64,000 nucleotides of DNA from Dendrophyllia cribrosa (lineage: Eukaryota; Cnidaria; Anthozoa; Scleractinia; Dendrophylliidae). Location: contig JAJLRJ010000005.1 of NCBI GenBank assembly GCA_024195265.1, forward strand, positions 19,152,036 to 19,216,035, written 5' to 3'. The position numbers and the translations under genes are program-made. Each line of letters opens with the position of its first letter. Position 1 is the first letter of the stretch. The notes under the pieces are model-generated. The model made no database searches and was not told where the DNA came from. It saw nothing but the letters and a program-made list of their open reading frames with translations. Shown here piece by piece: positions 37,701 through 55,700 of this stretch.

Positions 37701-40700
37701 TGGAGCAAAAATCCCAAAACAGATTCTGATACAATCCGAACGATCCACCTGCGGACATGAATTGTTGGATTAAAATCTAAGATGGATCCCTAAATGAAAG
37801 GAAAATTGAAATTTTTCAAACTTCAGTTTCCGGCTTTAGTAGTTAAGGACTTGGCGGTACCAGATCAGTTTTGCAAAACTGATCTGATACCAAGCCAAGT
37901 CTTAACTACTTCCCATCTGTTGGATTAAAAAATATAGAAAAATCAAATGAAACTATATGTTGATTAAAACAAAGTGCGTTTATTTCATTGCGTGATACAA
38001 TTCTCGGAAACACAGGATGTAATACCCAGAAACAGAGAACGGGGAATCCCCCGCTTACAAGTCTGAACATGTTTTGATAAAAAGGAAATGAGTCATCACT
38101 AATAGTTATTGTTTCAGATCACGAGACGGTCGTGTGATATTTTTAACCAATCAGAGGCTTCACACTTTGATTCACAATTGTGAACTTTTTCAGTGAAAAA
38201 GTTCACAATTGTGAAGTTGTTTGTGAAGTTAAGATGCCTTACTCTCTAAAACAGCTCGATCAGCGATATGAGAATGTTTGCCACAATATAAAGAATGCCA
38301 AGGATTACACCTTAGAACACCTGAAGACAACTATTGGAATTGATTTGAAAGATTTTTTCAATAATCTTGATACTCAAAACTTGGAGGAATGCGAAGGGGA
38401 GTTTGATGCAATTGAAGAGAGCATTCATCAATGCCGAGTGGCTATACGAAATGAAAAGTCTCGACGCTTACTGCAGAATGATATTACGAGGTTGACTGAG
38501 CAAGATACTAAGAAAATGATGCGGAAACATGTATTTAAGCTAAAGAGGAGAAAGTCAGTTTTGGATTCTGCTACACCTTATGCCATGAAGTCGGAGGGGT
38601 CAATTGAACATTAAAATGGAAAATGCAGCACTACCATGGAACTGTGAACTGAACTTTTTAGTTTTATATTGTTTAAATTTTGTAGTGGCCATAAGCGAAA
38701 GTTGTACTACCATTCTCATGAATATACCGCTTGTCATCGAAACAACTGAGTGAAACTTTATTAATCTCATAACTGCCTAAAAAATTACAGACAAATGTAT
38801 TGGAAACAAAAACATTAATTCTGACCATCTACTACTACTGATTTACATATCAAGTGATTTTAGATAAAACAATGGGAAATATCGCTAACGCGTTAGCCGA
38901 TTTTAAGCCAAGCTTTTCCGCATGATCGTCATATGGCTGTCTTGTAGGTAAAGAGATCTAGAAGTTTATGATTTAGTTTAATCTTAAAATGGCTGAGAGT
39001 GAAACTGGTTTATCTGATTTGTTCGATGTTAATGCAAATATTCTCAGGATTTTCGAATTTGCTAGTCGTGTGAAGAAGAGTATTTCATCTTTCACCAAAC
39101 ATACATAACTGAATGATGCATCATCCACCTTCTGATTGGTTGAAAAAATCATACGACTGACTCATGATCTGAAACAATAGCTATTAATGATGACTCATTT
39201 CCTGTTATTAAAACATGTTCGCTATTTTTGTTTTCTGGGAATTTAGACACGCACCGCTTATAGCTATTGTTTTAAAAATATAATCTCATATAATAGTATA
39301 GAATGAATTGTAATTTGGAAATTCATGATGAATTTGAGAATATGGGAGAGTTGACCTGTCCCTTTTGTGATGAGCAATTGGCAGAAGTTGACAGAAGTGT
39401 GATAGTGGTCAAGTCATGCTGTAGTGAACAAGATATAAATAGTATAGATGGCATGAGTGTTTGTCTAAATTGTGGTTCCGTACATGGATATAATTATGTT
39501 AAAGAGTATGTTAATTTTTATGAGAGTATGTATAAAATACGGCGAAAATCGGTATATCATCGGAAATATCATATCCAAAACACAATAAATAACATCTGTA
39601 GCCAACACAAATTACAGATATCAAACAATTACAATAATAGAACTAAAATCATGAAAATTTTTGAGGAGATAGATAAAATTTTGCCACAGATAAATGGAAA
39701 CCGAAAACGTATGATAAATATTGATTACATTTTAAAACAATTATTTAAGATGTTAAAATTACCAACTGAAAATGATATACCTTTATCTAAATCGAAAAGA
39801 ACATTAACTTGCTATAAACAATATTGGGATAATATCCTATTGTTAATAGGTGATCAAATACAAACAATTATTAATAAATGATCCAATATCGTCATGCAAA
39901 GGGGGTTTTCCCTATGAATGAGTTATTGAATGAAAAGTTTGTTAGTAAAATTTACTCTAAAAGTTTACTCGGAAGTGAATTTTTTATCATATTGTTTCTC
40001 AAATTTTTCATCAAGAGTACAAAGATCAATTATCGTTTCGTCTAGCAACCTCATATTATTGATAAAATTGATATGGTTAAATTGCATTCCTCTTAAAAAA
40101 GACCGTAAATCAACGAGTACCTTCTCATATGTTGTGTACGCATATTTAGACATTTCTATTTTTCTTTTATAGTTTTTAATTTCGCTGTATGTCTTAATCA
40201 ATAAACCACTACCACTAATTACTCCTAAAATAATAGGGTTCAATGTTATTGAACCAGCTATTGTACCAATGGATATTAAAGAAACTGATGATAAATTAAT
40301 AGCTAAATTCAATCTCTTGAAAATATTTGAAAGCCTTCTTATAGCACCAAAAACGCTTGTGATAAAATCGATATAATGCTTTGATTTCAGATAGTTTTTC
40401 TTTGCTGATGCTTTTATCAATATGATTAAAATTGAAGATGTCTGTTTCAGTCATTTATATTATATATTTGGATAATAATAATTAAATTTTAGGATTTGAA
40501 ATGAGGCAATATAATAATCCAGAGATTTGACCCATTATTGGAGATCTTTTTAATTTCTTCGGTATTGAAAGGCAGCAATATGTGTATCCAGGCCCCTTTT
40601 CATAGTCATTGTAAAATCTTCCAAATGCATCATGAAAAATAGCATGTTTAATTAAAAATTGGTATTTGGTATTTAGAGTACAAGAACCTGGTCCTATTAA

Positions 40701-43700
40701 TCCAATGTCAGAGTGTTTTTCTAATATTTGGTTAAATGATATTGGCTTATTCAAATAGTTAACGTACAAAAATTGATATATTAAAGCCGATTTTAATATT
40801 TCATCTTTAGTATTAGGATGTAGGTTTTTTTGGGTTGTGAAAAATTTATTACAAAAATTAATTGCTTGCTCCAAATTCGGCATGTATATTTATTGATTAT
40901 ATTATTTCAATCTCTTTCTTCACATATTATAGTTGTTATGAATTGATATGCAGCATCAACACCTGTGCCTAAAAATGCATTAATGTTTAAAATGTTGCCT
41001 TCATCGATATTTGCATTTATATTATTTATAATTTGATTCTTTCCTCCCGTCCCCATATTTGATGGATGGACGGTATTGTTATTTATAACTCGAAATCTAA
41101 CTATTTTGAAAATACCTTGTTGTAAATTTGGATCATTTTGATCTAATATATAGATCAAACATTTTTTCAGTGTGAGATTTGCAGGACATATGATGTTTCG
41201 CTGTCCTTCAAAATATATATGCCACTTAGCCAATGACTTGTCTAATTTTCCATAAAAAAATATTTTTCTTTTGCTATTTAATATTTTATATTCATTTAAA
41301 TCAATATCTGTCTGCATAGTCATCGTCTGATTTTCATAAACAAAGGGAGAATCATAAACAGAACTTTCAACATCTGATTGAGAACCTTTAACGCCATAAA
41401 TAATCAGCTTTGCTGGGCCTTGAACAACATCGTCAGCTGTCCCTTTCCATTTCAGATCCAGATAAATGAATTCAGGTGGAGAAATCTGCCATTTATGCAT
41501 GTGAATAATTGACCTTGAATACTTCATAAATTTTTTTGTTGATTGTTGATTGATATTCAGGCTTGTGCTCACAACGTCAACGCTCACACTCGTCATGGAA
41601 GCGGGAAAGAATTCAATACAAATCGTATATTCTCCTTCTGGAAGTTTTAACATGTTGAAACCAAGTCTCCCAGAGTATTCATTGAAAACATCTTTTGTTA
41701 TTTTCAAATCATACGCCTTCTTATTGAAATGATGTGGAGAACTTGAAAAATCAGTTATTCCAGTCACTGTTATATTATGTTCAGAGCTGGATTCATCCAC
41801 ATCCTCCATCAAATACCGGAATTCATCCTTCAAGTGGGAGGTTGACGATATATGCGATTCATTGACATATTTTTTGAGTTCAGCTTCTGTTTTGATCAGT
41901 TCCTCTGCCAGAGCTACTGTCTTCTCATTTAGCTGTGTATCAACATATTGTTTTGATGTTGCTTCATTGGATGTTTTTGGATCGGGAAGACCGATGATTT
42001 TCTCCGATCTCATATCAAGAGTACCAGTCATTGTTCCACCTGATAAAGAAAGCCTTTTGTCTGCTTCATCATCTACATATCCTTTATTCACAGCATGATC
42101 AACTGCTGTTGGATCTTTTATATTGAAAATTGTATTATTATTCATATCCAAACCAGTCTCCATCGACAACATCTCTTTTCGAGATAAGAATATATTTTTT
42201 ACATCGTTATATGAAACAAGATTGTTGTAACTTGCAGCTAAATCCAAGTATGTCTGTGGTTTCGATTTTACAACATTATAAAGTTCTTTCAAATCAATAT
42301 CCTTAGTGACTTCGTGTGTATGTGAGGGGGTTGAAGGATGATAATTTTTTAATGTTCTCATATTCACAGTTGATAAATCATTATTTTCATCAGTGACGAC
42401 GTTTAATATTTTTTTATTTTTTGCATCATAATTTTCACCTTCTAAATTTAAAAAATGTGTTTTTCCATGATAAAAAGGAAAAGCATCATTATCACCTGAT
42501 GCTTGAACATTTAATAAAGCATGATAATTAGCATCTAAATGATCAGTTAATACTATTCTTTCATTTTTCATATATGCATCTGTAATATTAGCTTTTTTAT
42601 TATTATAATTTTTAAGAGTTATCATATTAGTTGCACAAAGATCATTATTTTCATCAGTGTCCATGTTTGTGATTAATTTTCGGTCCATATCGATTTCTCC
42701 AGGTAGAATTAATTTATGTCCCCGCAGATCCAAATCTCCAGTCATATGAGTTGTTCCATCTAATTTTAAATAATGCGTGTCTCCATACTCTTTATTAACA
42801 GCATCTTTTTCTGAAATTGGTGTTTTTAAATTTCTTATCTTATTGTTTTTCATATCGAGATTTGCTGTAACATATGGTAAATGTATACTAACGAATGTAT
42901 TTCTAACAAAATTGAAATCAACTACATCATTCAAACCAGTAGCTGTTCCTATATTTACTATTTTTTTATCTTGCATATCATAATTACCATCATCTGTCAA
43001 TTTGAAGCCAACGCCTGGCAGGCCTGGTGGCCCTTGTGATGTTGTTGTTGTTGTTGATGGTAGTAATCCGTTTGAAAAACTCATTATATATAATATGAGT
43101 ATATTATATTTTTTCATTGAAGTTCTTAGTTGTGAATTTCCGTGGCTTATCAATATATATGAAGCAATATGAATCATTAGTGGCTTTTTCATAGTCAGAT
43201 TTTTTTATACCAAGCTCTCTACTAATCCTGTTTTGTTCGTTTGGAGAAGGAAATTCAAAAATGCAGTAATGTGTAGAGTTAAGACGGATACATTTGTCAG
43301 TGTCATAAAACGATTGACTAAGATATATGCAACTGCAATTTTTGTTTCTTGAGTTAGTGTAGTAGTTTCTTATTTCTGCATCATTTTTACTACCAGTATT
43401 AAGATAGTCATCAAAAATAACCAACTTTTGGTTATCACAATTTAATTCGGACAAAGGCAATATTTGATCATTACTTGCTTCAATAATTGGGTAACCCACC
43501 TCTTCACTGATTGGTTTCAATGTTTCCAGTAAATGTTGATATTTTGATTGTTCCAAGTTTTTAGCATATAGATAAATTTTATCGAAATAGAGTAGCCTAT
43601 AGATCATGTCTAGCAGAACGTTTGTTTTGCCTGACCCAGATGGACCGCAAATTAGAAAACGGAAGTATCGGTCAGGCATGAAAGGATATAACTGTTTATA

Positions 43701-46700
43701 ATTTGAGGTTACATCATCATCGGCATCGTAATTTGGTATTATCATTTATATTATATGGGTATATTATTTCAATATAACATGGTGTATAACACGGTGTACA
43801 ACACAGTGTACAACACGGTGTAAAATGCTCTTTTTTATATATGATTTCCAAATTTTATGTAACCTAATAATATAATAAAAATGAGTTTACTTAAATGGAA
43901 AGAACTTGCAAAAAGAAAATCTGAATTAGGAAATAAAATTAATTATGTTCATGATGCAATCACAAAACATAATCTTGGTCAGCAGATAAGTCAGGAATCG
44001 TTGACGAAGGTATTCAAACCAGTAACTAGTAAATTAGATGATGTTATCGACAGTAATTTAGATTTAAGGGTACCTATAAGAAAGAAACGAGCACCTAAAA
44101 AAGGTGACCAAGGTATTGACTACATGCCTGAAGTTGACCCTTTCGAAGACATGCAAGTTGATGATTTATTTGGTGATTATGTCCCACCAAATCAAGAAAA
44201 ACAACTGGTGCCAAAACCACCAACATATGAAAAATCTTTACAAGATCTTCTGGAAGGAAATAAGGATATTTATGTTGATCCTCAGTACTTTGGTGATGAA
44301 CCAGATGAATTACCACCAGAATATGAAGAAGAAGAGATGGACTATGGATTAGATGATGAAGATACAAGTAATTCGATTCTGGATGATCTTGGTATTACCA
44401 ATTATGAAAATGTGGATAAGATATTGAATCAATCAACAATAACACCCCAAAAGACTAAGACATATCTTAATAAGATTATAAAAAATGCCAAAACAAAAAG
44501 GGGCCAATTAAGTGGCTATAAATCAAATGTTACAAAACAATACAATAAGGGGGAGATATCATCAGGTGAAAGGCAAATGCGAAACAAAAGAATAGACAAC
44601 GCAAGAGTTACTTTAAATGAATACATAAAACATTATGAGACTAAACTGCAAACAATGAAAGGTTCCGGAATCAACGGCCGAGGAAGAAAACAGAGAGGTG
44701 GAAATATTATGTTTTTTAATGATGTAAAGCAGCTTTCGAAAAAATTGGAATTGATTATTGGTGAAAGATTGGCAGGGAATACCAGCATTGAGATGCGAAA
44801 TATGGGAGTTACTATATTGGACACATTATTGAAAATGTCGAAAATCAATAGGTCACAATATAGTAAATTGTATAGTCAATATTTCAAAATATAATTTATG
44901 TAACTTTATTATATAAATGGAACGAGAGATAGTTTTATCATCTTATAGTGTAAAAAATCAATTGAATAATAAACCTGAGGATTTTACAACTAAATTTACT
45001 AGACCTATAATTTTGGATAGTAATATGCAATATGTTATTGGTCTTAACAGAATTATCAATATGAGTTTTACATGGTTTAATGTTAATGCTGGATACAACA
45101 ATCAATTAATCAAATATAGCTCCGATAGTGGTTCAACATTTAACAACATCACCTTTCCAGCCGGAGTATGGAATTATACAGACTTCAATACATATATTAA
45201 GGATATAACGAAGACTGGTGATACGTATCCTATCAATCTTGAATTCGATAATACAACATTTAGGGTTACGATTACATTGGCTCAGAATTATCAGCTTGAT
45301 TTGACGCATTCCAATTTTAATGATCTAATCGGGTTTGATAAGACAGTATTATCTAATGAAACAAATATAGGGCCGAAAGTGCCCAATCTCGGTCAAGACA
45401 CAGATATCCTGAATATCCATTGTGACCTAATTAATGATTCACTTGTAGACGGTCAAGATACAGACATCATTTATTCCTTCTCGACCAGTGTACTCCAACC
45501 TAGTTACTCCTTTACCCTCGAACCACGAAGAGTCACATTCAATCCAGTCAATAAGAATAATATTAGTAGTATCAGGGTATACATTACTGATGGAAAAAGA
45601 AGATTAGTTAACCTGAATGGAGCAGATACATCTTTCTCACTAATTCTGAAAAGTATAGAATAATATAACATAATAGTATAATGAAACCGTATGAATTCAA
45701 AAGATTTTACCATCCAAAACTTGGTAAATTTGTATATCAACACAAAGGGTCTGGGCTTATCGTTGATAATATTTTCAAACCATTAAAGAGTGTGGCATCA
45801 TCTGTTTTCAAGAAATTTGCTAAGCCAATAGCAAAGAAGGCGTTAGAATCGGGGATATCCCATGCAGGTGAGCGACTGGGTAAGGCGGTATCAGAGAAGT
45901 CAGGAGACCTAATAATGAAAAGATTGGCAAATTTGAGAAAAGGAGCTACAAGACAAACAGCAATTGTTCCATCCTCACCCATTAAACAGCAACAGCAAGA
46001 TGAAAGTACTGATACGATACTGAATAGACTCATTTCTGGAGATGGTTTGAGGAGAAGACGTAGAGTGGGATTAGTATAGAATCAATAAAATGATTTTAAT
46101 ATGAATATTTTTTTTAATTGTTAAAATTTATCTAACATAATATTATAATGTCATTTAGAACAGATAATTTTCTTCAAAGAAATGAGTTGGTGCGATTCCA
46201 ACTCGATGATGTAATCAGGTCCCCAGCTAACGGTCAACATCAGGTCAAAAATGGTTACAAGTTCACAATCAACGATCGGTCATCATTCTACGATTGGTAT
46301 AATGCCTATATTGAAGTCCAATTCCAAGTACAGAAATTAGCAGACGGATCGGGATATGCTGCTGCTGACAGAATCACAGTCATTAATGGAGCGCATTCCT
46401 TAATTGACCACATAATGATTAAAAGCGCTGGGAAAATTGTGTACGACACTGATAATCTACACAAGGTCACTTTTGTGAAGAATTTGCTAGAGTATTCTGA
46501 TGATTATAGCAGATCAGTCGCTAAAAACAGTTTCTGGTATTTGGACACGAATGCTACAACAGCCAACACGAATACAGGATTTGAAGCTCGCCGGTTGCAA
46601 ACTCAAGCACTTCGAGACAATGGGACTGGTGGTGCTAAAAACATTAATGTGATTATACCATTGAACAGGTTCTCATTTTTTGAAGAACTTGAAAATAAGA

Positions 46701-49700
46701 TGCTTGTACCAATGCAAATACAATTTAACATTGAGCTACAAAACGACGGTGAACTCATTCACATGGCTAATGGAACTGATGCTGGAAGAATTGTTGTTAA
46801 TAGGTTTTTGCTATGGGTGCCAAAACTAACCCCAAAGGATTCATTGTATGACAATTTCGTTAGTTCATTTCTTAAAGAAACTCAGTGGAAATATTTAAGG
46901 GAAATGTACGAAGCATCAGCTCCTACACAATCATCAGGATTTTTCCAGATTTCAAGCAGTATTGACAATGTCAAACACATTTTTGTTTACTTGAAAAGAA
47001 CAAACCCGCCTAATGATGCAGTTGAAGAAGACAGTCCTTATCTAATGAACACTTATAAACTTAATGCTGCTAATAATAACTCTTCCCTTTTAAACTGTAG
47101 ACTAGAATATGGAAATGGAGTCTTTTATCCAGAAACAGAGTATGATACAGAATCAAAAGTGAGAATCTTTAACGATTTGATGTCATATACTATGCGGAAA
47201 AATGACTATAACAGCGGAACTCAGCTGAACTTAGCAAACTATAGTTCTCTGTATGGGTTGATTTACTTTAATCTTACGTATCAAACTGAAAAAATAACAA
47301 GAGATCCGAAACAGCTAATCTTCAGGTATAGACTAAGCCAGAATGCAGCTGCAAACTTCAATGTTCATGCTGTAGTCCTATATGAAGAATCTGTTGTCAT
47401 TGACAAGGTGGGTAATGAATTGGTTATAGTGTAAAATAAATATCCTTATTTCATATATATTATGTGAAATTTTATATAATATATATTATATATAAGAAAT
47501 GACTCAGCTTTTTGAAATCAAAGTAAATTTGTCTGACAATCAAAAGAAGAATCTTAGCAATGCTTTCAAAAAAAGGGAAACTATTGTTCTCAGACTATCA
47601 AATAAATCTCTTCATGGCAATGACGTTTTATATGTATCATCGATGGTGAAGAAGAGATTGGAGAAGAATCGTATGATGAATAAGGGTATGGATATCAAAC
47701 TTGTTAAAAGTAATATCAGAAAACAGGTTGGAGGTAGTCTACTAACTTCTATCTTAAGTATTGGAAAGACACTAGCACCAACTATAGGCAAAACCCTTGG
47801 GCTATCAGCTCTTGCTGGATTGGCTTCAGAAGGTGCTTCTCAGATTGTGAAATCAATATCTGGCAAAGGCGTACAGTCGGGTGGTTTTCTCGTACCACAA
47901 GACAAAATTAATAAACTGATAGAATATAAGCATCTTTTATCTGCGAAACAAAAACAGGATATATTGAATGCCCTTCAATCAGGTTCAGGTGTTCATGTGA
48001 AACCAACAAAAACACAATCAGGTGGATTTTTAGGCACTCTGTTGGCAAGCATTGGTGTTCCACTCCTTCTAAATGCTTTGACTGGTAAAACTGGTAGTGG
48101 GGCTCCACGAATGGGAACTAGTAAGAAAAAGGGTATGGGAGCTCCAAGAATTGGTGTATATAGACCACCTCCATTTTATGGGAGTTGGCCCGATAATACG
48201 ATAGGTATGGGGATTAAAAAAAAAACAACCAAAAAAAAGACAACCAAAAGGGGCGAAGGCTTGCTATTAGGGAAAAGCAGCCCTTTCAATGGTATTCCTC
48301 TTCTCGGAGCAATACTGTAAAACCGAAATTCCACAAAGACATCCCGTTAAGTAATCATGATCTAATAAAATGGTGTAGATATTTGAACATCCCAATCAAA
48401 GATGTTCTGTCAAGGGATGAAAGAGTTTCACATAACCATAGACAGGCGTTATTTATCTACAATCTTGAACCCTCATATATGAGTGGAAGCCATTGGGTGG
48501 CCACATATGTCAAAGACAACGTGATAAATTATTTTGACAGTTTTGGTATGCCTCCATTTCAAGAGATCGTAAATCATGCGAAAAGAAGGAATATGACACT
48601 GCTTCACCAAAACAACCAAATCCAAAACATAAAAACGTCTACATGTGGCTACTTCTGTTTATACTTTCTGAACGAAATGAATAAGGGGAATTCGTATTAT
48701 AATTTATTGCAAGTATTTGACATATATGATACAATGAAGAATGAGAGATTCCTCGAACATTATTTTAGAAATATCTAACTTATATATATAATGGTAAAAT
48801 CATATTGTGTTAGACAGAAGAAAGTCACTGAATGTGTTCCAGGAAGCGAACGATATGTGAAAACTAAAAATGGTCGAACTATGTTGAAATGCACTTGCGC
48901 TGAATGTGGTATAACAAAAACTAAATTTATAAAACAAAAACAGGGAAACTAATTGAGCCCTCACAAGATGGGGGCTTTTTAAATATAGAAGGTAGTCACA
49001 GTCTTGGTGAAATAGCAGCTAAAAGCGCTTTAAAAGGTTTGTATAATTTAGGTAGAATCGGAGCATCAAAGGCAATTAAATCTGGTTATGCTAAACAAAA
49101 AATAAAAGGAATGGCTGATAAATATTTGGATCAAGCCTTAGATAGTTTAACTTCAGATATTAGTAAGAAACTAGATCCATTGCATAAAGGTAGTGGGATT
49201 GATATTCATAAGGCCATTGGGAAGCTTCCGAAACCAAAAGGCGGTTGGACATTACCCGGCCATAAATATACTGGCCCATATAATGATTTAAAGAGTCAAG
49301 TGAAATATGACCCAACAACTGGCCAAATATTAGAAATATATGACCAACCTACAGGAAGAACTGATGAAATAGCAATGCAACATGATGTCGATTATTCAGT
49401 CTGCAAGGATGATAGGAAATGTAAAAATAAGGCAGACCGAAAAATGGTTCAAGCTTTAGACAACGTACCGTATAATGAAAGACAATGGGGGCATTGGTTG
49501 GCTAGAAACACGATTGATGTAAAACAAAAACTTGGATTAGGTGTTAAAAGGAAGTCAAAAAACGTAAAAAGGAGTTGAGTAATGATTGGGCTGAACTCCT
49601 TGCAAATGAACTACATAAACCAATCAAACGGAAATTTCAAAAGAGACGTGTTATTGTTAATGGAATAGATGATATTTGGAGCGCTGACCTTGTAGAAATG

Positions 49701-52700
49701 CAGAAGTTTTCAAAATGGAATAAAGGATATAGATATTTGTTAAACATCATTGATGTGTTTTCGAAATTTGCTTGGAGCATCCCTATTAAAAATAAAACAG
49801 GTAATACAATTACTGAATCATTTGATGATGTTATTAAAAAATCCAAACGGAAACCTAAATTTATTTGGGTAGACCAAGGGTCTGAATTCTATAATAAAAC
49901 TTTCAAAGACTGGCTAAAGAAAAATAATATTGAGATGTATTCTACTTTCAATGAAGGTAAAGCTGTTATTATTGAGAGATTTAACAGAACATTAAAATCT
50001 AAAATGTGGAAACAATTTACAGCTCAAAATACAACACAATATTTAGACATGTTACCAAAACTATTAAATGAATACAACAGTACAAAGCATTCAAGTATTA
50101 AAATGAAACCTATTGAAGCATCTATGAAAAAGAATGAAGGAACTGTTTATTTCAATCTATATGATACGGAACTATTATCATATAAACCAAAATTTAAAGT
50201 TGGTGATAAGGTTAGAATTTCAAAGTATAAACGGAATGTGTTCGACAAGGGTTATACACCAAACTGGACTGAAGAAGTGTTTACAGTCGATAAGATACAA
50301 TACACTAATCCTATAACTTACAAATTAAAAGATCTCAATGATGAAGACATACAAGGGAGTTTTTATGAACCTGAACTATTAAAAGCCAAGCAGGATGTTT
50401 TCCGTATTGATAAAGTAATTCGGAGGGATTATAAAAAGAAACAAGCTTTGGTGAAGTGGAAAGGATATAGTGATGATTTTAACAGCTGGATACCGTTAAA
50501 AGATGTCAAAAATATATAATGTTTATATATATCATGAGTGGTATTAAGAAATATATTAAAAAAATAAAATTTCAAATTAATGAATGTGAAGATGAATTAG
50601 ACAATCTTCACGATAAAATATACGATCATGAACGTAGGTTGGATATGTTACAATATAAGGACAAATTATTGAAACTTTATCATAAAAAAATACATGAAAT
50701 TGATGAAGATATAACATTGAAACAGTTATTGAAGATTATCTGCAATGAGATAGAAAACAATAAATACGATGAGGAATGTAATGTGTTGAAACAAACAAAA
50801 GTTGATGACGTCAAATATCTCAAACGTGAATACAATAAGCAATGCAAAATGTGATTAATGAGACTTTGTTTTAAAAAATAGGTTAAAGAGATGTTACTAT
50901 TTACAAGTATCCTAGAAATTTCTAAGATATTTATATCTTTGCATTCGCTATTCATTGGTAGCCAAAAATATTAATGTTTCTGGCTATTACGCAATAATGC
51001 AAAATATATAATTCTTGACCAATATTATCCGCACTATTATGAAACTATTTAAAATAATATCTATAGTATAGTATTATATATGGAAAATCAAAATGTTAAG
51101 AGAGGTCGCGGTAGACCAAAAGTTTTCACAACAGAAGAACTAAAAAAACATAAAACCTTATGTATGTTAAATAAAGAGTGGTATTGTAATATTTGTAAAA
51201 ATGATAAAAATTATACACTTGCAGGGAAATGGTGTCACTTGAAAACAAAAAAGCATATGAAGAATGTAAATGTCAACAATATAATGCAACGAATCATCAA
51301 CATAACACAAAAAAATAATCCAAATTACACACAAAATTAATTATTTTCATAGTTATAGTTCGAAGGATCCATGATTGGATTATTTGAATTCTCGACTATA
51401 TTTAAACGCACATTTGTAAAACTATTTAAAAGATTATCTATAGAATTATTATATATATGAAATCAGAAAAATCTAACCTTATAGATATGAATAAGAGTGA
51501 TCTTAAGAAACTTAGTAAATCAGAACTCATCAAATTGCTTTTAAAGCAACAGAATAAAAAGCCTAAAATTATCGTGGTAGATGACGAAAAACAACGTAGG
51601 AGACCAGTTCCTACACCGAGAAAATCTGTTAGGGATATGGTCAAAAACTATGAAGATAATATCATTTTACCACCAGTGCCAGCACCTAGAACTATTAAAC
51701 CAGTGCCAGCACCTAGAACTATTAAACCAGTGCCAGCATCTAGAACTTACAAACCAGTGCCAGCACCTAGAACTAAGATAGAGCAGACAGACAAAGCTCT
51801 TAAAGGCTATACAAAGTCTTATGAAATTGACATAAAAAACAACAAAGACCCACTAATGCAACTACAAAACACAAGAAAGGCTGTTGCATACCATATGATC
51901 AGTGTATTAACATCAATGAAAGGATTAAAATTCGTTGAAACGCTTAAGGTAACATTTACAAAAATATCAAATGGAGAAACAGTGTATAAAACTGCCTATT
52001 TCAACAGTCTAGTTCAAACAATCATAAACAATCTAGAGATCACTGAATCACTACAAGTGTCAAAGCAAGACATATTAAATAAAATTGCAGTTTGGATTTC
52101 AGAGGGATCTGGTTGGACTGTTGAATCTGTTGACAATCATTATCTTAATGTTGTAAGATATCAACCAATGAGAGGCTCTTCATATATTAAACTACCACAA
52201 GAACTAAGAAATAGTGCCAAAGGTTTGATCAACATGAAAAACGAAGACAATCAGTGTTTTAGATGGTGTCACATTAGACATTTGAATCCTCAAGAAAAAT
52301 ACCCACAGAGAATTAAAAAATGTGATAAAGAATTTATTGAAAAATTGAATTACTCAGGAATTGAATTTCCAGTCAATCAAAAACAGTATAATAAAATTGA
52401 GAAACAGAATAATATCAATATCATTGTATTTGGATATGAAGAAAAACAACCATTTCCTATTTACATATCCCAAGAAAAATTTGAAGATCAAATGCATTTA
52501 TTATTGATAACAGAAGGCGAAAACAAACATTATGTATTAATAAAAGACTTCAATAAATTTATGTACAATCAAACAAAACATGAACATAGAAAGCATTTTT
52601 GTATGTATTGTTTACAATGTTTCAGTAGTGAAAGAGTATTATTAAATCATAAAGAAAATTGCATTATCATAAATGGAAAACAAGCCATAAAAATGCCGTC

Positions 52701-55700
52701 AAAGGATAATAACATATTGAAATTCAACAACTTTCATAAGCAGTTGCCTGTACCATTTGTCGTCTATGCAGATTTTGAAGCTATTGTAGAAAAAATAGAA
52801 GGATGCAGACCAAACAATGACAAATCCTATACTGAATCGTATCAAAAACATACTGATTGCGGATATGGTTATAAGGTTGTATGCTGTTATGATGATAAAT
52901 ACACCAAACCTGTACAAGTGTATAGAGGTGAAAATTCAGTTTATAAATTTATGGAAGCTATGCTTGAAGAAGTCAAATATTGTCGTAAGATGAATAAAAA
53001 ATATTTTAACAAACCATTAAAAATGACAAAAAAGGATGAAGAAGAATTCCAAAAAGCTGATAAATGCCATATATGCGATAAAAAGTATACAGAGAAAGAT
53101 ATTCGAGTTCGAGATCATTGTCATATAACTGGCAAGTATAGAGGATCAGCGCACCAAGATTGTAATCTGAAACTTAGAGTAAATCCAGCAGAGATAAAAA
53201 TTCCTGTTATATTCCATAATCTAAGAGGTTATGATAGTCATTTTATAATGCAAGAGATTGGTGAAATTGTTAAGAAGCATACATATACAAATAAGAAAGG
53301 TGAAAAGTGTCAAATGAATATCAATGCCATACCTAACAACATGGAGAAGTATATGGCTTTCATGTTGGGTAATCATCTTACCTTTATTGATAGTTTCCAA
53401 TTTATGAGCTCAAGTTTGGAAAAACTAGTGAGCAATCTACCAAAAGAAGCATTAAAATATACCTCTCAAAAATTCAAAGATAAAAAGCTTGATTTGATGT
53501 CAAAGAAAGGCATCTATCCATACGACTTCATGGACAATTTTGACAAATTCAATGAAAAACTACCAACAAAAGAAGAATTTTACAGCATATTGAATAATGA
53601 ACACATATCAGATGAAGACTATAAACATGCTCAAAATGTGTGGAAAACCTTCAATCTTCAAAATATGGGTGAATACCATAACTTATATCTTAAATCTGAC
53701 ATCCTTCTGTTAGCAGATGTATTTGAAAACTTTCGAAAGACCTGTTTAAAATACTATAAATTAGACCCTTGTCATTATTTCACATCTCCCGGTTTGTCGT
53801 GGGATGCTATGCTAAAAATGACTGATATCAAATTGGAACTAATGACTGACATTGATATGTATCAATTCATTGAAAAGGGTATGAGAGGTGGTATTTCTTA
53901 TATAGCTAATCGATATGGAAAAGCAAACAATAAATACATGAAAACATATGATGAGAAGGCGCCCTCAAAGTATATTATATATCTTGATGCTAACAATCTG
54001 TATGGTTGGGCAATGAGTCAATACCTTCCAACCGGCGGTTTCAAATGGATGACAGATAAACAGATTAACAACATAGATTTAGCTAAATATAATGAAAACA
54101 GCGAAAAAGGTTTAATATTAGAAGTTGATTTAGAATACCCCAAAGAGTTGCATAACCTACATAACGACTACCCATTAGCTGCTGAGAGGGTGTGTGTAAA
54201 TAAAGGTATGTTGTCTGGGTATTGTAAAAAAATAGCTACCAAATATAATATATCAACAGGTCTAGTGCAAAAACTAATTCCAACTTTAAGAAACAAAGAT
54301 AAATATGTTCTACACTATAGAAACCTTCAATTATATACAGATCTTGGATTAAAAGTCATTAAAGTTCATCGAGTATTAGAATTTAATCAGTCACCTTGGC
54401 TTAAACAGTATATAGACTTCAACACCAACAAACGAAAAAATACCAAAAATTCTTTTGAGAAAGATTTCTTCAAACTTATGAATAATTCAGTATTTGGAAA
54501 AACAATGGAAAATATCAGAAAGAGAGTAGATGTTAGATTAGTTACTGATGAGAAAAAACTATTAAAAATGGCTGCTAAACCTACTTATGTAAGCAGTAAG
54601 ATATTCAATGAAAATCTTGTAGCCGTTCATAAGATCAAAGAAACACTAACCCTAAACAGGCCGGCATATGTGGGTATGTGTATTCTTGATCTTAGTAAGG
54701 TTTTGATGTATGACTTCCATTATAACTATATCAAAAAGAAATATGGAGACAAAGCTAGACTACTATTCACAGACACTGACAGTCTCACATACGAAATTGA
54801 AGCTAAGGATGTGTATCAAGATTTTTGGAATGATAAAGATAAATTTGATAATAGCGATTACCCAGAAGATTCTCCATATTTTGATAAGACAAATAAAAAA
54901 GTAATTGGTAAATTCAAAGATGAAGCTGCAAGTATACCAATAACTGAATTCATCGGTCTACGATCTAAAATGTATAGTTACATGAAAGACAACCAAAAAG
55001 GAGGAAAGACTGCCAAGGGAATCAAAAAGAATATTATCAAAAATAATATCAAGCATCAAGATTATAAAGAAACGTTATTAGGAAATAAACAGATGCATCA
55101 CACTATGAAAACAATAAGAAGTCAAAACCATCAATTAGGAAGTTATGAAATCAATAAAGTATCACTCAGCTGTTTCGATGACAAAAGATATATACTGGAA
55201 GATGGTATAAATTCATATGCTTATGGACATTATAAAATGAAAAAGAATTAAATCAAAAAATAACTTTCCTTAATTCAATCCTGTGTAGACTTCCTGTGTT
55301 TCCGAGAATTGTATCACGCAATGAAATAAACGCACCATTTGTTTTAATTAACATATAGTTTCATTTGATTTTACCATTTAATATTTCCATATTTTTTAAT
55401 CTGATTTTTCCATGTGATTATTCCATGTGATTGTGCCATCAGATGGGAAGTAGTTATAAGTTGGCTTGGTATCAGATCAGTTTCGCAAAACTGATCTGGT
55501 ACCGCCAACTCTATAACTACTGGCTTTAGATCGGCTAATAGGAAAGTCATTTTCGTCAACTCTCTTCTAAGCGCTGGATATCATGTGGTATTTGATGTTG
55601 TAATTTATTATCCTGGTTTTAGTGCATGTCTCGTACCTCCAACAGTGATTCCTCCAGCTCAGCCAACTGCACTTTTAACTCCTCTTCTTTCCTCAGCAAT

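Follow-up and report, generated by a model that had tools for sequence, protein, structure and literature searches.

A probable tandem −1 frameshift cascade leading into the integrase of a coral Polinton

Two successive −1 steps in one gene block

We analysed a window of 64,000 nucleotides (nt) from the stony coral Dendrophyllia cribrosa, that is, the whole stretch from 19,152,036 to 19,216,035 on the forward strand of contig JAJLRJ010000005.1 (assembly GCA_024195265.1), which carries a Polinton/Maverick-type element; positions below are those of the window. On its plus strand, the block at 47.5-50.5 kb consists of five successive frames, encoding a precursor, a protease, a zinc ribbon, a phospholipase A2 (PLA2) and an integrase (Table 1). 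Judging from the comparison of 101 copies of this block, the zinc, PLA2 and integrase genes are very probably translated as a single unit through two programmed ribosomal frameshifts of −1, one after the other: one at a site with an adjacent stop codon and a predicted hairpin (S2), and one at a site before a predicted pseudoknot (S3). The original prediction had proposed, from the window alone, a frameshift cascade including also a step from the precursor into the protease (S1). We found strong support for the zinc-PLA2-integrase part, because of the conservation of the junctions, the exchange of heptamers with the −1 relation kept and the covarying downstream structures; support for the precursor-protease part was moderate.

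The coordinates and frames of that proposal were confirmed: the steps into the protease, PLA2 and integrase frames are each −1, each with an in-phase heptamer, and the overlaps, given before as 26-105 nt, were recomputed as 103 nt (precursor/protease), 28 nt (zinc/PLA2) and 31 nt (PLA2/integrase). The predicted product sizes follow from these coordinates: 426 amino acids (aa) for precursor-protease, 262 aa for zinc-PLA2 and 576 aa for zinc-PLA2-integrase, with 53 aa for the zinc protein alone. In the window, the first in-frame methionine is residue 88 of the protease frame, residue 63 of the PLA2 frame (the PLA2 domain itself begins at residue 107) and residue 51 of the integrase frame. The last comes after a WSADL motif, which we take to hold the first catalytic aspartate of rve integrases.

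In a single A-rich sequence, such heptamers are suggestive, weakly better than chance. At the rate observed in twelve open reading frames (ORFs) of the element (37 in-phase heptamers per 4452 codons), the probability of at least one heptamer is 0.25, 0.08 and 0.09 for the precursor/protease, zinc/PLA2 and PLA2/integrase overlaps, respectively; with codons shuffled within each overlap it is 0.56, 0.47 and 0.39, so that by this test the signal of the window alone is not separable from chance. Conservation across copies decides.

Conservation of the junctions in the coral genome

In the source genome (627 Mb, 22 contigs), the integrase has at least 124 near copies, and a more distant PLA2 has at least 150 matches. 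From these, 60 and 40 junction blocks, respectively, were hand-picked for spread and compared together with the window. The resulting 101 blocks form 19 clusters at 90% nucleotide identity (PLA2 C-terminal half plus junction), the least similar clusters sharing 52%, and the frame relation of each copy was read from protein anchors flanking each junction. Modules of the element seem to have been exchanged between lineages: in four copies (L036, L052, L053 and L054) the integrase is 96-98% identical to that of the window, and the precursor and protease only 44-49%.

The PLA2-integrase junction is −1 and open in 95 of the 101 blocks, and all 95 carry A_AAA_AAC in phase. The exceptions are two zero-frame copies (L035, made continuous by one extra A 3' of the heptamer, and L098), two that are −1 but closed (L092, L107) and two at +1 (L093, L096). 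Across the 96 copies with a −1 step and heptamer (19 clusters, about 52-90% mutual identity), the preceding codon is TCA in 70, CCA in 25 and TTA in one; the amino acid varies, and the third base, which is the first base of the heptamer and normally the freest, is invariant. The following codon starts with G in 96 of 96. Past S3, the zero frame reaches a stop after 4 codons in 79 copies and after 13 in 15; in the remaining two it takes 8 and 34 codons. Downstream, an H-type pseudoknot with a spacer of 5-10 nt was predicted in 12 of 19 cluster representatives, scoring in each case above all of the 52-62 control windows taken from the block concerned (the score is a stacking sum for perfect helices with no loop energies, so that absolute values are rough). 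Stem 1 takes the forms AAGGAGTT/AACTCCTT, (T)GTTGAGT/GCTCAAC(A), AGGTTTTGAGT/GCTCGAAACCT, AGGTTTTGAGT/GCTCAAAATCT and CAGATTTTG/CAAAATCTG, and stem 2 TGATTGG/CCAATCA, CTGATTGG/CCAATCAG, CGGCTGG/TCGGCCG and GGCTGG/CCGGCC.

At the zinc-PLA2 junction, 88 of the 101 blocks are −1 and open, 87 of them with an in-phase heptamer; seven others are zero-frame, three +1, two closed and one unreadable. Here the heptamer itself switches by lineage between G_GGA_AAC, T_TTA_AAC and T_TTA_AAA, with a few A_AAA_AAA or A_AAA_AAT, and the codon before it changes along, its third base matching (CAG, TCG, GGG or AAG before GGA AAC; AAT, GAT or TTT before TTA AAC or TTA AAA). It is difficult to see what other than selection for slipping would replace one canonical slip site by another without disturbing the phase. 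A zero-frame stop directly follows the heptamer in 82 of the 89 copies counted (16 clusters), among which L073 owes its count to a heptamer further down than the true site. The hairpin behind it (8-10 bp, spacer 4-7 nt) was compared with windows of equal length from the same block and ranks among the 2% most stable in each of the 16 cluster representatives tested. One identical hairpin sequence stands behind G_GGA_AAC, T_TTA_AAC and T_TTA_AAA, and six types were distinguished, differing by changes on both sides of pairs: that of the window (GAGCCCTCA/TGGGGGCTT), GCCAGTCA/TGGCTGGC, GCCAGCCG/CGGCTGGC, GCCCTCAC/GTGGGGGC, GGCCCGTC/GGCGGGCT and AGGCCCGTCT/GGGCGGGCTT. The pairs were tabulated in 10 of 20 distinct sequences; loops differ by one base, and a gap-free alignment misregisters the stems. 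A pseudoknot was also considered at S2 and dropped as unlikely, since the 5-nt loop (CAAGA; TCTTG was considered too) leaves no linker.

The original prediction had stem-loops able to form pseudoknots 5 nt downstream of two sites; what we retain is a hairpin at S2 and a pseudoknot at S3. Heptamer, spacer and stems, which it had proposed to follow through related copies, are kept at both of these sites (the S3 pseudoknot in the 12 representatives above), and at S1 the frame varies and no structure is conserved. Neither freely varying heptamers nor continuous frames in most near copies, two of the outcomes it had set against itself, were found at the zinc-PLA2-integrase junctions in the copies compared from this genome.

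The precursor-protease junction

A −1 shift from precursor to protease, giving the product of 426 aa, is plausible and moderately supported by the sequences, and less certain than the other two. Of 95 readable copies, 61 are −1 (60 open), and 58 of these 60 hold a heptamer, which in one of them is CCCTTTC only; 57 keep an in-phase A_AAA_AAN. In the window, CCCTTTC (48281-48287) is a third in-phase heptamer of the overlap and probably a chance occurrence. The precursor has a recognizable end, a lysine run followed by a separate tail, which it keeps in other genomes: among the 120 relatives listed of 3056, 109 end as the window's does (108 by pattern, and P0250 added by eye), P0287 runs on a little and P0356 is cut short, while four run into the protease (P0257, P0260, P0348, P0349) and five leave the frame at the lysine run (P0253, P0255, P0302, P0312, P0327).

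The remaining readable copies, +1 in 20 and zero-frame in 14, count against a programmed shift at this junction. They favour instead an explanation confined to it, namely that polymerase slippage on the long A run supplies the protease frame. The run, of about ten, differs in length between near-identical copies, which may reflect real indels or assembly error, and no downstream structure stood above background in the window, or in more than one of 16 representatives across clusters. Against polymerase slippage, −1 is the commonest state and the in-phase A_AAA_AAN is kept with it; we regard this explanation as possible, if somewhat doubtful.

Relatives in other genomes

Data from other genomes are proteins. 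The integrase search scored 7995 candidates, and the best 120 of 7774 were used; for PLA2, the best 120 of 2204. Tail and continuity counts were made by regular expressions. PLA2 tails such as PKNVKSRRVKKTGKKN and GVKKPKNVKSRRVKKTGKKN, each ending at a stop, and integrase N-ends such as KKRKKPSS..NW and VKKRKKPSSKENW..KLADELH fit one DNA string in frames −1 apart, since A_AAA_AAC_G is the only sequence that reads K-N-(V/G) in one frame and K-K-R in the other; these tails and N-ends come from separate records, and their pairing is inferred. Among the best 120 PLA2 relatives, 38 tails are compatible with this arrangement, 58 have a lysine run, four run on into the integrase and 20 are other or cut. 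PLA2 N-ends reading MWYNKDQICE are what the zinc motif ECGITKTRF gives when read at −1, so that the zinc-PLA2 step is probably −1 there too; the DNA of L018 shows this for its own variant.

All four combinations seem to occur among these sequences: both steps −1 (the window), only the zinc-PLA2 step −1 (P0027 type), only the PLA2-integrase junction broken (P0156 type, lysine run), and none (P0035). By Pfam domains, P0032 and P0035 are fused zinc-PLA2-integrase proteins, so predicted. Some lineages thus likely make the fused protein naturally, with frameshifting as one of the routes to it. Since the frames are continuous in some of the distant relatives, frameshifting is a trait of some lineages and not of all Polintons. 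In the P0156/P0163 type, with its lysine-run junction, the PLA2 tail is found in two frames (VKKKTPKI and KKKRPKFSMARKISR, each before a stop) and also continuous with the integrase, as if the length of the A run had drifted. The relatives listed include P0097, from the stony coral Oculina patagonica, and P0106, from a Trichoplax MELD virus.

Scans of IMG/VR viral contigs gave no relatives, and tblastn with the integrase gave none in a phage collection. Eight loci were found in contigs labelled as bacterial metagenome-assembled genomes; the six inspected (L001-L006) have different gene orders. These contigs are filed under Nomurabacteria, Ignavibacteria, a Muriicola and a tubeworm endosymbiont, and carry Polinton-like genes; they are probably misbinned eukaryotic or viral DNA.

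Alternative explanations

The frame breaks could be ordinary indels in decaying copies of a single fused zinc-PLA2-integrase gene. Continuous versions do exist in relatives, the single-sequence chance of heptamers is not small, and one inserted nucleotide is enough to make PLA2 and integrase continuous in L035. Decay is nonetheless very improbable, and for S2 and S3 nearly refuted by conservation: 95 (S3) and 88 (S2) of 101 copies, from 19 and 16 clusters, have the −1 step in an unchanged position between open frames, heptamer types swap with the phase kept, and the downstream structures covary.

PLA2 and integrase might instead be made from separate starts, through leaky scanning, reinitiation past the zinc stop or a non-AUG codon such as the TTG before SNDW. 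The original prediction had held that the protease, PLA2 and integrase frames lack a usable ATG, which proved true of most integrase frames (none before the anchor in 83 of 97 −1 copies, and in the window only past WSADL) and protease frames (none in 52 of 61), but 85 of 90 −1 copies do have an ATG before the anchor in the PLA2 frame, in many near copies as ATGTGGTAT inside the zinc gene; the missing ATG thus carries strong weight for integrase and protease alone. Gene callers, too, begin the integrase of relatives at MSKNDW, which is seen as LSENDW in fused relatives. However, the E-C-G codons of the zinc gene create its internal ATG incidentally, in the window a stop cuts this ATG off, and separate starts leave the invariant in-phase heptamers, the third-base pattern and the structures unexplained, which makes them improbable. 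That stop is a TAA within 48915-48930 in the PLA2 frame, upstream of S2, where most near copies are open to ATGTGGTAT; it has no bearing if ribosomes come to PLA2 by a slip at S2. Splicing could join the frames in principle, and in the window a donor-like GTAAAA lies 3' of the S3 heptamer, but frames that overlap by about 30 nt can be joined without an intron and the bases after this heptamer are GG or GC, not GT, in 31 of 96 copies; this explanation is the hardest to credit.

Several observations weigh against the two-step frameshift cascade. Copies from one genome are not independent, and L036, otherwise diverged, carries the S3 block of the window, which points to module exchange. The structures are fewer than their counts suggest: 10 of 16 S2 representatives have the same hairpin sequence, leaving about six independent types, and of the 12 S3 pseudoknots two are the window's, six are one second type and four are further types, about five being independent. 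The clusters of L079, L114 and L115 yielded no S2 representative, and L032, a near copy, breaks the S2 hairpin, retaining only a shifted 6-bp stem. At S3, a plain hairpin ranks in the top 5% of windows for no more than 10 of the 19 representatives, stem 2 overlies the conserved NDW and KPI, so that its invariance may partly be protein constraint, and 7 of the 19 representatives (L077, L081, L087, L094, L105, L113 and L115) keep the heptamer with no pseudoknot found. Among relatives, zinc and PLA2 share one frame in 61 of the best 120 of 2204 PLA2 sequences, and the integrase is continuous with PLA2 in 32 of the best 120 of 7774 (34 by Pfam domains). Finally, L005, one of the contigs with a bacterial label, has a continuous PLA2-integrase frame and a protease with its own ATG.

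Six of the seven clusters without a pseudoknot have an NW-type integrase N-terminus, L115 being of another type; most of these six also have a longer PLA2 tail past A_AAA_AAC.

Possible mechanism and relation to known systems

If the zinc, PLA2 and integrase genes are read as one unit, ribosomes would start at the zinc ATG and most would stop after the 53-aa zinc protein. Some would slip at S2, where the stop codon and the hairpin may slow them, and yield zinc-PLA2; a few of these would slip again at S3, before the pseudoknot, and yield zinc-PLA2-integrase, so that yields would fall stepwise. Both enzymes would then be scarce, each with the zinc domain as a tag at its N-terminus. By analogy with Gag-Pro-Pol, this domain could bind DNA or the capsid and so bring both enzymes into the particle, which is a guess. 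The packaging of integrase and protease by way of frameshift products, part of the original prediction, is likewise something we infer.

Double −1 frameshifting in gag-pro-pol of retroviruses such as MMTV and MPMV/SRV uses site types such as A_AAA_AAC and G_GGA_AAC. The resemblance lies in two successive −1 steps, the same heptamer types, a predicted downstream pseudoknot and the integrase in last place. Unlike retroviruses, the present element is double-stranded DNA with a PolB gene, and the ten of its ORFs scanned with Pfam gave no match to a reverse transcriptase family. Its middle enzyme is a phospholipase; a 53-aa zinc ribbon stands in the entry position, where retroviruses have a capsid precursor; and relatives encode the same fusion in one frame.

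For adintoviruses, a related virus group, a −1 frameshift has been proposed from KnotInFrame at the end of Penton, with a similar relationship for Hexon-Adenain (PMC11071296). The latter is a step into the protease, as at S1; the parts of that source considered here mention no zinc, PLA2 or integrase junctions and no conservation test. As far as those parts go, this proposal comes closest among earlier ideas and anticipates the protease case in part. Parvovirus-type PLA2 is also present in a Maverick CAP/PLA2 protein of insects, for which the corresponding parts of the paper describe no frameshift link to an integrase (PMC5803895). In the sections considered of the literature on Polintons, adintoviruses and frameshifting (including PMC12567637, PMC8097293, PMC3671162, PMC8310308, PMC10120064 and PMC12721341), we found no report of frameshifting between zinc, PLA2 and integrase genes. 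Thus −1 frameshifting with these heptamers is known, and a tandem cascade into a Polinton integrase is seemingly undescribed. In the integrase of the Trichoplax MELD virus (P0106), a zinc-ribbon-like N-terminus, recognized by eye, resembles the present arrangement, but lies in one continuous predicted protein with the integrase and there is no PLA2.

A virus-like transposon that keeps a tandem cascade with the integrase as its last product would be a case of convergence with Gag-Pro-Pol. The chances seem to us evenly balanced that Polintons of this lineage independently evolved a two-step −1 cascade like that of retroviruses, in which a zinc-ribbon tag brings low and stepwise falling amounts of PLA2 and integrase into the virion, an instance of large eukaryotic DNA elements supplying their integrase through tandem frameshifting in which slip sites are exchangeable and stimulators covary. 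Such a cascade would account for the many integrase and PLA2 frames that have no start codon of their own, with relatives predicted from internal sites such as MSKNDW, and it predicts fusion proteins sharing a zinc N-terminus, a handle on whether Polintons make infectious particles.

The element and its other features

Table 1. Features of the element and of its plus-strand gene block (window positions)
Feature	Position	Strand	Remarks
Polinton/Maverick-type element	37838..55521		Outer bounds suggested by inverted terminal repeats
Precursor ORF	47499..48320	+	ATG 47499, stop 48318-48320; poly-lysine near its end, then separate tail
Slip region S1	48218..48239	+	A_AAA_AAA 48218-48224 and A_AAA_AAG 48233-48239; A run varies among other copies
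Protease frame, adenain-like	48218..48778	+	−1 to precursor; Peptidase_C5 E 0.007, below cut-off
Zinc-ribbon ORF, DUF5679-like	48791..48952	+	Cascade entry frame, ATG start; PF18930 E 6.4e-6, 26.6 bits against a cut-off of 27
Slip site S2	48943..48952	+	In-phase heptamer G_GGA_AAC 48943-48949, directly followed by TAA 48950-48952
Hairpin	48955..48977	+	Predicted fold, 5 nt past S2; GAGCCCTCA/TGGGGGCTT, loop CAAGA
PLA2 frame, parvovirus-type phospholipase A2	48925..49578	+	−1 to zinc ORF; PF08398 E 2.6e-9
Slip site S3	49557..49563	+	A_AAA_AAC; present in 19/19 clusters
H-type pseudoknot	49569..49626	+	Predicted, 5 nt past S3; stem 1 49569-49576/49594-49601 (AAGGAGTT/AACTCCTT), stem 2 49583-49589/49620-49626 (TGATTGG/CCAATCA)
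Integrase frame, rve core and chromodomain	49548..50519	+	−1 to PLA2; PF00665 E 2e-13, PF00385 E 1e-7

The inverted repeats that suggest the bounds of the element (37838-38020 and 55289-55521) are 74% identical over 233 columns, with an 86-nt part at 91%. Pfam matches within it comprise PolB, an rve integrase with chromodomain, an A32-type packaging ATPase and the parvovirus-type PLA2. For the protease, a sequence search gave no relative with a solved structure. The ORFs at 46148-47431 and 44917-45660 had no significant Pfam match, and their assignment as major capsid and penton is by position only. On the minus strand, an ORF of 765 aa (40907-43204) has a fibre-like look, owing to a GPPGLPG stretch that resembles collagen and to DM.N.KI motifs that recur; it holds 13 in-phase heptamers in its 766 codons.

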